From a virus: a stretch of DNA of 22,750 nucleotides. Made by a program: the position numbers and the translations under genes. Shown in pieces: positions 125 to 18,400 of this stretch. The notes under the pieces were generated by a model. It was not told the origin of the DNA. It ran no database searches and saw nothing but the letters and a program-made list of their open reading frames with translations. Within the stretch, counting starts at the first letter, position 1. Every line of letters begins with the position of its first letter. The DNA is taken from the IMG/VR virus record IMGVR_UViG_3300046028_001732, positions 1 to 22,750 of that record. One strand, written 5' to 3'.

Positions 125-1444
125 ATGCAATCTCGTCAAGATTTAATGAAAAAATGGGCTCCGATTCTTGAGCATGAAAGTGCTCCAAGAATTCGTGACA
201 ACTATCGTAAAGAAGTAACTGCGGTTCTTCTAGAAAACCAAGAAATCGAAATGCGTCGTGGTCGTGAAGCCCTAGGCGAATTAAACGAAGCTGTTCCTAC
301 AAACAATGGCGGTGCTGGCATCGGCTTGCAAGGTGGCGGTGCTCTTGGTCCAGGTACTGGCGTTACTGGTTTTGATCCAGTAATGATTAGCTTGGTTCGT
401 CGTGCAATGCCACAGATGATCGCTTATGACATCTGCGGTGTTCAACCAATGACACAACCAACTGGCTTGATTTTCGCAATGAAATCACGCTACGCTGCGA
501 ACGATGGTACTGAGGCTCTATTCAACGAAGCTGATACAGATCGTTCTGGTGCAGCATCTCCTGTTCACTCTGGTGTTTATGACTTCGGTGGTTCTGAAAC
601 TACTGGTGTTGGTATGACTACTGCTGTTGCTGAAGACAAAGGTAACTCTGGTAACACATTCGGCGAAATGGCTTTCTCTATCGAAAAGACTGCTGTAACT
701 GCAAAGACTCGTGCTTTGAAGGCAGAATACTCTATCGAATTAGCACAAGACATGAAGTCTGTTCATGGTCTTGACGCTGAAGGTGAATTAAGCAACATTC
801 TCTCTACAGAGATTCTTGCTGAAATCAACCGTGAAGTTATCCGTACTGTCTACAAGACTGCTAAAGCAGGTGCTCAAGTTGGTGTAACTACTGCTGGCAC
901 TTTTGACTTAGACACTGACTCTAATGGTCGTTGGTCTGTTGAGAAATTCAAAGGTCTAATGTTCCAAATTGAACGTGAAGCCAATGCTATCGGTCAACAA
1001 ACTCGTCGTGGTCGTGGTAACATTATCATCACTTCAGCTGATGTGGCTTCTGCCCTTGCAATGGCTGGTGTGTTGGATTATTCTTCTGGCTTGTCTGGTA
1101 AGAATGACCTAACTGTTGATGATACTTCTACTACTTTCGCTGGTGTTCTAAACGGTAAGTATAAAGTTTATGTTGATCCATATACTTCAAACGTATCTGA
1201 CACTCAGTTCTTCGTTGTTGGCTACAAAGGCGCATCTGCTTTTGACGCTGGCTTGTTCTATTGCCCATATGTTCCATTGCAAATGGTTCGTGCAGTTGAT
1301 CCTAACACCTTCCAGCCAAAAATTGGCTTCAAGACTCGTTATGGTCTAGTTGCTAACCCATTCGTTTCATTGGATGGTACTGGTGGTTTGACAGCAAACG
1401 AAAACTACTACTATCGTCGTGTTAAAGTCGCTAACATAATGTAA
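125..1444 (+). CDS. 23: Major capsid protein gp23
   Basis: 439 residues, versus about 521 in T4 gp23. It forms the hexamers of the phage head. Recognisable T4-like stretches are the N-terminal KKWAPILEHE region, the VRRAMPQMIAYDICGVQPM block around residues 90-110 (T4 has VRRAIPNLIAFDICGVQPM) and FKTRYGLVANPF near the C-terminus. A likely gp21 cleavage site of the (L/I)xE type is LNE|AVP after Glu55, matching the T4 cut after Glu65, and it is followed by a Gly-rich stretch. The shorter length suggests a reduced or absent T4-type insertion domain (inference). An AAGGAA Shine-Dalgarno at 113-118 overlaps the upstream stop and fixes the ATG at 125. A terminator follows at 1487-1517. Confidence 0.96.
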   Translation: MQSRQDLMKKWAPILEHESAPRIRDNYRKEVTAVLLENQEIEMRRGREALGELNEAVPTNNGGAGIGLQGGGALGPGTGVTGFDPVMISLVRRAMPQMIAYDICGVQPMTQPTGLIFAMKSRYAANDGTEALFNEADTDRSGAASPVHSGVYDFGGSETTGVGMTTAVAEDKGNSGNTFGEMAFSIEKTAVTAKTRALKAEYSIELAQDMKSVHGLDAEGELSNILSTEILAEINREVIRTVYKTAKAGAQVGVTTAGTFDLDTDSNGRWSVEKFKGLMFQIEREANAIGQQTRRGRGNIIITSADVASALAMAGVLDYSSGLSGKNDLTVDDTSTTFAGVLNGKYKVYVDPYTSNVSDTQFFVVGYKGASAFDAGLFYCPYVPLQMVRAVDPNTFQPKIGFKTRYGLVANPFVSLDGTGGLTANENYYYRRVKVANIM

Positions 1445-16736: not shown

Positions 16737-17113
16737 CACCATTTGACTTTATTAATGCAATCAATCTTACAAAGAAAGATCTATTAGCAGAAGACCCGAT
16801 GGCTAAGAAGGACTATGTTCCTTTTATTATTAACAGAGGTTTAGGTTATTTCCCCGATACAGTTCTATATGCGAACGAGATGAATCGCAACTCATCTATT
16901 CCAGTGGACTGGCAGTTTTCTTTTTTACTAAATAGTATCTCTAAGAAGAAAAGATTCTCCAAATGGCACAAAAAAGATGCCGAAACAGAGTCTATTCGAT
17001 TAGTTAAAGAATACTTTGGTTATTCCGATTCTAAGGCAATTGATGCCCTAGATATATTGACGGAAGACCAGTTGGTAATGATAAAAGAAAAATTATACAA
17101 AGGTGGAAAATAA
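16733..17113 (+). CDS. 62: gp62, clamp loader small subunit
   Basis: 126 residues, clearly shorter than T4 gp62 (187). Recognition is by position (44-62-regA order as in T4) and by local matches: AKKDYVPFIINRGLGYFPDTVLYANEMN (T4 has [27 protein letters not shown], shown in part), a KKKRFSKWHKKD stretch (T4: PRGKRYGKWAKL), and SKAIDALDILTEDQL. gp62 is the single non-ATPase subunit that links the gp44 tetramer. The C-terminal region found in T4 seems reduced. The start overlaps the preceding stop, and the stop shares a base with the next ATG. Confidence 0.85.
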   Translation: MTPFDFINAINLTKKDLLAEDPMAKKDYVPFIINRGLGYFPDTVLYANEMNRNSSIPVDWQFSFLLNSISKKKRFSKWHKKDAETESIRLVKEYFGYSDSKAIDALDILTEDQLVMIKEKLYKGGK

Positions 17114-17205
17114 TGACTGTCGAATTGATTTATTACGACTGGACGGCTGAGTCCATGCTTGAAGAGATACTTTATAGTACACTTCAAAGAATTGTTTGCT
17201 CTTGA
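17113..17205 (+). CDS. 30-codon ORF at the head of the truncated regA
   Basis: An ATG overlapping the gp62 stop (TAATG) opens 30 codons beginning MTVELIYYDWTAESML and ending at TGA 17203. It sits exactly where regA should begin, but only the next reading frame continues as RegA. It may be the residue of the original regA start region after a deletion or frameshift, or a short leader peptide whose translation feeds the regA frame. I recognise no function. Confidence 0.4.
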   Translation: MTVELIYYDWTAESMLEEILYSTLQRIVCS

Positions 17206-17413
17206 TGGGAAAGAATCTAACATCACGAGTGGTGATATTGAGAGAAGAAATGCTATTGCTGGTTTGCTTCAAGATTGGGATCTATTAAAGATACTAAATA
17301 ATTCACAAGCAGACAACAAAGCATCTTTGTCTCAAATTAAAGTAGTCTCTTTTAAAGAGAAGCCCGATTGGGAACTTGTTCCCAAATATAACATAGGAAA
17401 GAAATTAAAATGA
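17159..17413 (+). pseudogene. regA: regA translational repressor, lacking the N-terminal third
   Basis: The frame from TTG 17159 encodes 84 residues that match T4 RegA (122 residues) from about residue 44: KRYFIVHFKELFALDGKESN (T4: LYYIVHFKEMLRMDGRQVE), then ERRNAIAGLLQDWDLL (T4: VRRDSIAWLLEDWGLI), VVSFKEKPDWELVPKYNIG (T4: VISFKQKHEWKLVPKYTIG). RegA represses translation of many early phage mRNAs, including 44, 45 and its own. The N-terminal helix implicated in RNA binding in T4 RegA is missing. Upstream the frame is open only to 17129 and offers no ATG; TTG 17159 lacks a good ribosome binding site. It is either a degraded gene or a shortened protein made by a rare start or a +1 shift from the 17113 ORF. 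Confidence 0.7.
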
Positions 17414-17583
17414 TTAAACTTGAATTAAGTATTGAAGAATGCAATATGATTCTTCGTGTATTGGGTAAGCACCCATTTGAAGAAGTTGCTGCCGTTATTA
17501 CTAAAATTAAACAGCAAGGTGAGCCACAGGTTGCAGCATTGGAAGCAGAAGCTGCACCAGTTGAATCACCAGCTGCTGAATAA
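17410..17583 (+). CDS. Small conserved phage protein of the LGKxPFEEV type
   Basis: 57 residues. The first half, MIKLELSIEECNMILRVLGK then HPFEEVAAVITKIKQQ, matches a very common short phage protein pattern (a strand, then two helices with an aLGxxPyxxV core). Its function is unknown. The second half is an Ala/Glu/Pro-rich tail. The ATG overlaps the regA TGA (ATGA). T4 has DNA polymerase gene 43 after regA; here this small gene ends the operon. Confidence 0.75.
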   Translation: MIKLELSIEECNMILRVLGKHPFEEVAAVITKIKQQGEPQVAALEAEAAPVESPAAE

Positions 17584-17638: not shown

Positions 17639-17646
17639 AATAAATA
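17639..17646 (+). promoter_or_regulatory. Late promoter of pqqA, AATAAATA
   Basis: AATAAATA matches the T4 late consensus TATAAATA except the first base. With T4 geometry, +1 falls at about 17652, so the mRNA would begin with the small stem GTCC-gtctt-GGAC (17652-17664), followed by GGAGAAA (17672-17678) and the pqqA ATG. No good sigma70 promoter is visible in 17584-17640. Confidence 0.65.
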
Positions 17647-17683
17647 TAAGTGTCCGTCTTGGACATAACATGGAGAAATAATT

Positions 17684-17755
17684 ATGTGGACTAAACCAGA
17701 AGCAGTAAACATGAGATACGGATTTGAAATCACTATGTATGTGATGACTCGTTAA
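17684..17755 (+). CDS. pqqA: PqqA, precursor peptide of pyrroloquinoline quinone (PQQ)
   Basis: 23 residues starting MWTKPEAV and ending GFEITMYVMTR. This is the exact length of the Klebsiella type (MWKKPAF...GLEVTLYISNR), with Trp2, Lys4, Pro5, Arg11, Gly13, Glu15, Thr17, Tyr19 and Arg23 all in register. Glu15 and Tyr19 are the two residues that the radical SAM enzyme PqqE cross-links, with PqqD as chaperone; proteolysis, PqqB and PqqC then finish PQQ. PQQ is the cofactor of methanol dehydrogenase and some sugar and alcohol dehydrogenases. No pqqB-F gene is in the window, so the peptide would rely on host enzymes. GGAG sits 8-12 bases before the ATG, and a T4-type late promoter lies upstream. 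A phage-carried metabolic gene is the natural reading. Confidence 0.92.
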   Translation: MWTKPEAVNMRYGFEITMYVMTR

Positions 17756-17838: not shown

Positions 17839-17868
17839 TGATATGCCTTCGGGATATCAATTTTATTT
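17839..17868 (+). terminator. Terminator with C(UUCG)G tetraloop
   Basis: TGATAT and CC pair with GG and ATATCA around a TTCG tetraloop, with one bulged G, then ATTTTATTT. C(UUCG)G is an exceptionally stable loop. It ends the pqqA unit. It also contains an ATG (17843) in frame with the next gene, which should not be used as its start. Confidence 0.75.
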
Positions 17869-17893: not shown

Positions 17894-18400
17894 ATGGTAA
17901 GACAATTCATTCCCTCAATTTTTGGTGAACACTTCAAAGACTTTGATAAGGTGTTCGTAGGTTTCGATGACCAGTTCTCGAAGATGCAAGTTCTTCATGA
18001 CGAACTAACCAAAAACATTCCCAACTATCCTCCATTCAATGTTCGCAAGAACGGTAATACCTACACGATTGAACTCGCTGTGGCAGGTTTCGCACAAAAC
18101 GAAATCGACATTACTATTGATGGCGGTAAGTTAATCGTTAAGGGTAACTCTGAATCAACTGAACCAGAGGGTACTGATTACTTGTTCAAAGGTATTGGCA
18201 TGCGTGCGTTTACTCGTGCATGGGCAATCGGTGACCAGTATGAAGTTAAGGATGCTGAACTGTTCAATGGTATATTAAAGATCGCTCTCGATCAATTGAT
18301 CCCAGAAGCACAGAAAGCAAAGAAAGTTCCAGTGAAAACTAAGGGACAAAAATCATTCTTACAGGAGGACGCATATGCTAAAGCTGCTGAAACATTGTAA
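17894..18400 (+). CDS. Hsp20/IbpA-type small heat shock protein
   Basis: 168 residues. The N-terminal segment VFVGFDDQFSKM resembles IbpA. An alpha-crystallin domain follows from about residue 50 to 140, with NYPPFNVRKNGNTYTIELAVAGF, the EIDITIDGGKLIVKG strand pair, and NGILKIALDQLIPEAQK closing in the sHsp pattern. The tail has an IPEAQ/VPV-type motif. Small Hsps hold unfolding proteins; phage copies are known in many T4-like viruses and are thought to aid virion protein folding. AGGAGAAG at 17881-17888 fixes the start at 17894; the in-frame ATG at 17843 lies inside the terminator. It has no obvious promoter of its own, so read-through from the pqqA late promoter is possible. Confidence 0.93.
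   Translation: MVRQFIPSIFGEHFKDFDKVFVGFDDQFSKMQVLHDELTKNIPNYPPFNVRKNGNTYTIELAVAGFAQNEIDITIDGGKLIVKGNSESTEPEGTDYLFKGIGMRAFTRAWAIGDQYEVKDAELFNGILKIALDQLIPEAQKAKKVPVKTKGQKSFLQEDAYAKAAETL

Follow-up and report, generated by a model that had tools for sequence, protein, structure and literature searches.

A pqqA gene at a conserved locus of a T4-like phage and its counterparts in phages of methylotrophs

Layout of the pqqA locus

The window (the whole stretch of 22,750 nucleotides that was analysed) comes from an aquatic T4-like phage, a classification fixed by its gp23 major head protein, which shares 61–64% identity with its counterparts in cyanophages and in Methylophilales phage Melnitz. The genes of interest are arranged in the order gp44, gp62, regA, a 57-aa ORF, pqqA, and hsp20, with a DNA ligase gene further on. 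The features to which we refer below are:

125..1444, + strand, gp23 major head protein (phrog_138, E = 3.4e-158)
17159..17413, + strand, regA translation repressor, upstream flank (phrog_242, E = 2.4e-31, positions 52–132 of 136; only the C-terminal part is in frame)
17410..17583, + strand, 57-aa ORF between regA and pqqA (place conserved in relatives by tblastn)
17640..17646, + strand, T4-late-promoter-like ATAAATA (the window has just 2 sites of this kind against 6.4 expected)
17651..17665, + strand, small leader hairpin TGTCC-GTCTT-GGACA, just 5′ of the pqqA Shine-Dalgarno sequence (similar in many syntenic relatives)
17672..17675, + strand, Shine-Dalgarno GGAG, 8 bases 5′ of the pqqA ATG (read from the sequence)
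17684..17755, + strand, pqqA, ATG to TAA, 23 codons plus the TAA stop
17839..17867, + strand, terminator-like hairpin followed by a T-rich run, between pqqA and hsp20 (not flagged by the terminator scan)
17894..18400, + strand, hsp20 small heat-shock protein, downstream flank (phrog_432, E = 2.4e-36)

An earlier note on this DNA had proposed a complete 23-codon PqqA gene at 17684–17755, and we confirmed that this ORF is a genuine PqqA-encoding gene in a T4-like phage. PqqA is the small precursor peptide of PQQ, the bacterial cofactor of methanol oxidation. Its translation is MWTKPEAVNMRYGFEITMYVMTR. The peptide scored 30.7 bits (E = 3.1e-7) against the Pfam PqqA profile PF08042 and 31.9 bits (E = 8.3e-8) against the NCBIfam PqqA equivalog TIGR02107, significant matches above the curated cut-offs of 21.1 and 20 bits, respectively, which places it in the PqqA family by both models; it was the single PqqA match in the window's own record. 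It shares with bacterial PqqA (PF08042 / TIGR02107) the length, the W-x-K-P motif, the R-x-G-x-E-x-T-x-Y core and the cross-linked Glu and Tyr. The residues Trp2, Pro5, Arg11, Gly13, Glu15, Thr17, Tyr19, and Arg23 are all present, and Glu15 and Tyr19 form the Glu-x3-Tyr pair that becomes PQQ. Each of the functional positions listed previously (these eight except Arg11) was therefore as claimed, with the reservation that Arg23 is not diagnostic, Lys being the last residue of many copies in phages and hosts. Like its relatives, pqqA is a free short peptide gene that has a start, a ribosome site, and a stop of its own. Its location is also bona fide phage DNA, since it lies between gp44/gp62/regA and hsp20/ligase and complete isolate genomes carry pqqA too.

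The flanks show some peculiarities. In the window regA is broken (17113–17160): about 115 internal bases are absent relative to the intact regA of a sister contig (L376), which is apparently the same phage, and the frame is shifted. This gap could reflect a true deletion or a fault of the assembly. The 57-aa ORF (17410–17583) matched nothing in PHROG or Pfam, and it is found at the same place, with 53–100% identity, in most syntenic relatives.

In most of these relatives an ATAAGTA or CTAAGTA sequence occurs near the position that corresponds to the ATAAATA of the window. TAAGTA was found 5′ of pqqA at 28 of 33 syntenic loci vs. 2% of the background, and because the loci are related, neither these counts nor those for the leader hairpin are independent. 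Judged by its sequence, the TAAGTA/ATAAATA element is a putative promoter; the promoter/terminator scan of the window gave no useful sigma-70 site. The TGTCC-N5-GGACA hairpin, whose sequence varies between subgroups, was seen in many T4-like contigs, downstream of regA.

pqqA in isolated phages and environmental viruses

For the search among known phages, 50,697 phage records were compared by tblastn with three queries, i.e., the window peptide, a host-type peptide, and a Klebsiella-type peptide, and all three retrieved the same twelve records. Nine of them are methylophage isolate records: Melnitz (four variants), Venkman, MEP301, MEP401, MEP402, and P19250A. The tenth is an uncultured podovirus from Manatee Spring (spring water). 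CAKLQF020000010.1 and CAKLQH020000055.1 (L008), both labeled ‘Acinetobacter phage MD-2021a’, were rejected as phage carriers since they are bacterial DNA; a 12-kb stretch of the longer record, CAKLQF020000010.1, shows a whole pqq operon in a bacterial setting and so looks like mislabelled host DNA. A search of plasmids for PqqA returned bacterial records only.

The Pfam PqqA model detected one PqqA in each of the seven whole genomes (7/7) representing the ten phage records, a set that leaves out MEP431–434 (Pelagivirus) and HIM624-A, which were not found in the phage collection, HIM624-A being sought with a related tail protein. All isolates with pqqA infect methylotrophs. The carriers belong to several lineages, among them Kyanoviridae (a T4-like member) and Zobellviridae, so that the gene is not confined to one family. 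In the methylotroph phages available for checking, which come from unrelated families, pqqA is nearly universal. The window gp23 was matched by 2,501 phage records, and of these the Melnitz records alone are also among the PqqA matches; Pelagibacter phage Mosig, which has a related regA, gave no PqqA match. In none of the ten phage records is PqqA annotated: in every case either nothing is annotated over the stretch or a hypothetical gene is placed on the opposite strand, just as expected from the earlier suggestion that gene callers miss this gene. Published descriptions of MEP301, Melnitz, and MEP401/402 make no mention of PqqA in the phage.

Environmental viruses were searched in IMG/VR with degenerate DNA patterns. 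A PqqA-core pattern gave at least 120 matches, as did a stricter version, vs. none for a reversed pattern of equal information content, so the matches are not due to chance. A pattern of the window type, W-T-K-P-E-A-x-x-M-R-Y-G-F-E-[V/I]-T-M-Y, was found in 98 stretches. Altogether, at least 242 virus contigs carry pqqA, and about 242 virus loci together with the window made up the analysed set of 243 viral pqqA genes. All are complete, beginning with ATG and reaching a stop after 23–25 codons, and a Shine-Dalgarno 4-mer precedes 242 of the 243, compared with 10% of background ATGs. Among the carriers are long records of 356 kb and 364 kb, the former with a T4-type head protein. Two contigs (L337 and L376) encode a peptide identical to that of the window at the same place and are apparently the same phage species.

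A second type of phage PqqA, I/L/V-R-L-G-F-E-[V/I]-T-M-Y-F, was observed in L012, L021, L023, L029, L036, L040, L048, L056, and L064; none of the sampled bacterial genomes contained it. Terminase and capsid genes are present in L056, while L021 encodes a T4-like gp32 and, directly 5′ of pqqA, a 414-aa ORF with a CxxCH motif. Another record, IMGVR_UViG_3300025120_009955 (72,356 bp; L062, L400–L402), is large-phage-like and carries ribonucleotide reductase, GroEL, ligase, and curli genes; its viral nature rests on PHROG matches, since no Terminase_6N was found. Its pqqA, at 41.9 kb, lies 6 kb from a PQQ methanol dehydrogenase gene and near genes for a 946-aa formate-dehydrogenase-like molybdopterin enzyme and a SoxY-SoxZ fusion.

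Conservation of the peptide and the missing remainder of the pathway

The 243 viral genes comprise 177 distinct nucleotide sequences and 81 peptides, with a pooled pN/pS of 0.23 and synonymous sites near saturation. As several of the search patterns demanded conserved residues, most of the per-site conservation is partly built in, and for this reason Glu15 and Tyr19 were tested separately by freeing both fully in the window-type pattern. The freed pattern matched 99 stretches vs. 98. The one extra stretch (L391), seemingly without Tyr19, was rejected because its DNA ends after ‘TA’. Both residues were unvarying in 99/99 window-type genes, though no longer required. Patterns in which the Glu codon began with a base other than G, or the Tyr codon with a base other than T, gave no matches; replacements of Glu by Asp, Ala, Gly, or Val and of Tyr by Phe, Ser, Cys, or Trp were covered in the window type only.

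It had been proposed to look for the same ORF at the same locus in related phages, and this search was successful: in 33 T4-like contigs pqqA lies beside regA and/or hsp20, with both neighbors in view in 25. Across these contigs gp44 is 56–99% and regA 67–100% identical to that of the window; with gp44 diverged to such an extent, pqqA has stayed in place over a long divergence. Together with the pN/pS of 0.23, this synteny shows that pqqA is old and selected in phages. Other T4-like contigs (L103, L126, L135, L145) have pqqA near gp23 or a tail gene, and in Melnitz it sits beside a tRNA and a gp5-like gene. These differing positions point to several gains or moves.

PqqB, PqqC, PqqD, and PqqE were searched for around the viral pqqA loci and none was found in the DNA examined, while the same search was positive at 36 of 139 bacterial pqqA loci. 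No PqqE above the model cut-off (381 bits) was present in the 50 long virus records or the seven named phage genomes. The PqqE model also matched radical-SAM proteins weakly in 10 of the 50 virus records; these scored 32 bits at most and were rejected as other radical-SAM enzymes. In turn, six of the seven host genomes encode PqqE over the cut-off, one copy each; the seventh, assembled from a single cell or a metagenome, may lack part of its sequence. The reading of the earlier note that no other pqq gene is present, and that the phage brings only the substrate of the pathway, is consistent with the ORFs of the 22.75-kb fragment, and its relatives bring no PqqE. A methylotroph-type PQQ dehydrogenase was detected in 1 of the 50 virus records and in none of the seven phage genomes.

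Comparison with pqqA of Methylophilaceae, also suggested earlier, revealed that the commonest phage PqqA peptides are identical to host peptides of this family, OM43 and Methylopumilus included. With peptides common to phages and Methylophilaceae, methylotroph hosts, and PqqE encoded by the hosts, phage pqqA has the marks of a host-derived auxiliary gene. The host of the window phage is very probably a methylotroph, as had been supposed, judging from its PqqA type and its relatives.

In fourteen bacterial genomes, mostly Methylophilaceae, we counted 1–7 pqqA copies per genome. Methylophilaceae are reported to have 3–12 pqqA vs. one pqqBCDE set, and solitary pqqA away from pqqBCDE is normal in this family (PMC4109929). 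In an OM43 strain no transcript is more abundant than that of the xoxF methanol dehydrogenase gene (PMC5120137). Multiple pqqA copies against a single pqqBCDE set, together with such a dominant xoxF transcript, suggest that these bacteria adjust the dosage of the peptide, and phage pqqA seems to fit this scheme. The window copy differs from the multi-copy genes of Methylophilaceae in being under phage control and in departing from the host consensus at Asn9, Tyr12, Ile16, Thr22, and Arg23, among others.

Probable role of phage PqqA during infection

We consider it probable (about 0.76) that pqqA is functional and that the T4-like methylotroph phage uses it as a substrate-only auxiliary metabolic gene. 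The phage would make extra PqqA peptide during infection, host PqqD would present it, and host PqqE would join Glu15 to Tyr19. Host PqqB, PqqC, and peptidases would then complete PQQ, with one PqqA consumed per PQQ. The higher PQQ level predicted in this way would load methanol dehydrogenase in the infected cell, and, as host gene expression fails, the phage copy would sustain the supply of PQQ, the oxidation of methanol, and the energy of the cell. As Methylophilaceae keep several pqqA per enzyme set, peptide supply is plausibly raised to load the very abundant methanol dehydrogenase, and we infer that phage PqqA likewise serves to provide more PQQ for this enzyme. On the other hand, overexpression of pqqAB alone in Acetobacter raised PQQ by 29% only, vs. 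eightfold for pqqABCDE (PMC7936290), indicating that peptide supply may not limit the flux.

PQQ derived from phage PqqA could also serve another use, such as another PQQ-dependent dehydrogenase, redox protection, or release at lysis. This is suggested by the occurrence of the second PqqA type (IRLGFE[VI]TMYF) in contigs without an established methylotroph link and by the cytochrome-like CxxCH gene immediately upstream of pqqA in L021. We find it unlikely, since every isolate with pqqA infects methylotrophs, XoxF dominates the transcriptome of the OM43 strain, and one long virus record pairs pqqA with methanol dehydrogenase.

The earlier note had offered as a further option a decoy that ties up host PqqD/PqqE; PQQ synthesis would then be blocked, shutting the pathway or redirecting SAM. 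The N-terminal leader that binds PqqD is kept, the affinity of PqqA for PqqD is sub-micromolar in Methylorubrum (PMC10906245), and the phages bring no PqqE, all of which would suit such an inhibitor. Yet an inhibitor needs neither Glu15 nor Tyr19, and no variant losing either was found; moreover, the commonest phage peptides do not differ by a single residue from the substrate that the host itself makes. The invariance of the two residues and the identity with host peptides disfavor the decoy, which we regard as improbable, and favor a working substrate.

A locus acting mainly as RNA, through the leader hairpin, or through a regulatory peptide that tunes pqq expression is a highly improbable reading. 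The hairpin and the promoter-like element are conserved upstream, but the Rfam scan gave no match, the leader plus pqqA folds no more stably than shuffled sequences (z = 0.05), and in the coding region constraint acts at the amino-acid level while synonymous change is free. That pqqA is a chance ORF or a recently captured, functionless host gene, as its very short length and the identity with host copies in many contigs might suggest, is contradicted already by the deep synteny, the pN/pS, the Shine-Dalgarno sequences, and the empty reversed-pattern search, and can be practically dismissed.

The preferred reading, a working substrate supplied by the phage, invites comparison with psbA of cyanophages, the classical phage auxiliary metabolic gene. 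Like genes of the psbA type, pqqA is host-derived and host-specific and probably keeps an energy pathway going in infection. It differs in that it supplies the consumed, ribosomally made substrate of a cofactor pathway and not an enzyme or structural subunit. The presence of pqqA in all seven methylotroph-type phage genomes (7/7) and in well over 200 environmental viruses suggests that such phages routinely provide their hosts with the raw material of PQQ. We also lean, with less assurance, toward a broader proposal, i.e., that pqqA is a core, host-defining gene of methylotroph phages, gained repeatedly by T4-like, jumbo, sipho-, and podoviruses, all of which would supply only the consumed substrate of a RiPP cofactor and exploit the pqqA-dosage control of Methylophilaceae.

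If this proposal is true, few unannotated auxiliary genes of aquatic phages would be more widespread than pqqA, which standard gene calling almost always misses, and its sequence would mark phages whose hosts make PQQ. Methylophilaceae (OM43, Methylopumilus, Methylotenera) play an important part in methanol oxidation in coastal seas and lakes; should the majority of their phages have pqqA, infection by viruses would be tied directly to one-carbon oxidation. Phage pqqA offers a simple host marker for uncultured phages and a test case for substrate-only auxiliary genes. Whether the peptide limits PQQ in infection can be tested in existing cultured pairs, i.e., Melnitz and Venkman with H5P1, and MEP401/402 with FZCC0133.

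Our literature search, with subscription papers and preprints outside its scope, returned no report of a general presence of pqqA in methylophages, of its fixed locus, or of its substrate-only nature; the near-universal, substrate-only distribution across families thus appears unreported in the searchable literature. The gene is nevertheless not a wholly new kind of auxiliary gene, as had been suggested, because one sentence of an earlier paper already counts PqqA among the auxiliary genes of VP_266, a T4-like methylophage population of Lake Baikal, for which support of methanol oxidation was proposed (Coutinho et al., 2020, PMC7678222). Both cases concern a T4-like Methylophilaceae virus with a PqqA gene that is interpreted as an auxiliary metabolic gene for methanol oxidation. 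However, VP_266 is one population with PqqA alongside methanol dehydrogenase, whereas pqqA of the window stands alone, and the present data extend to several unrelated methylophage families, a fixed locus, selection, and the absence of PqqE. In a 2026 reservoir study, viral pqqA was listed among phosphorus-cycling genes (PMC13188868).
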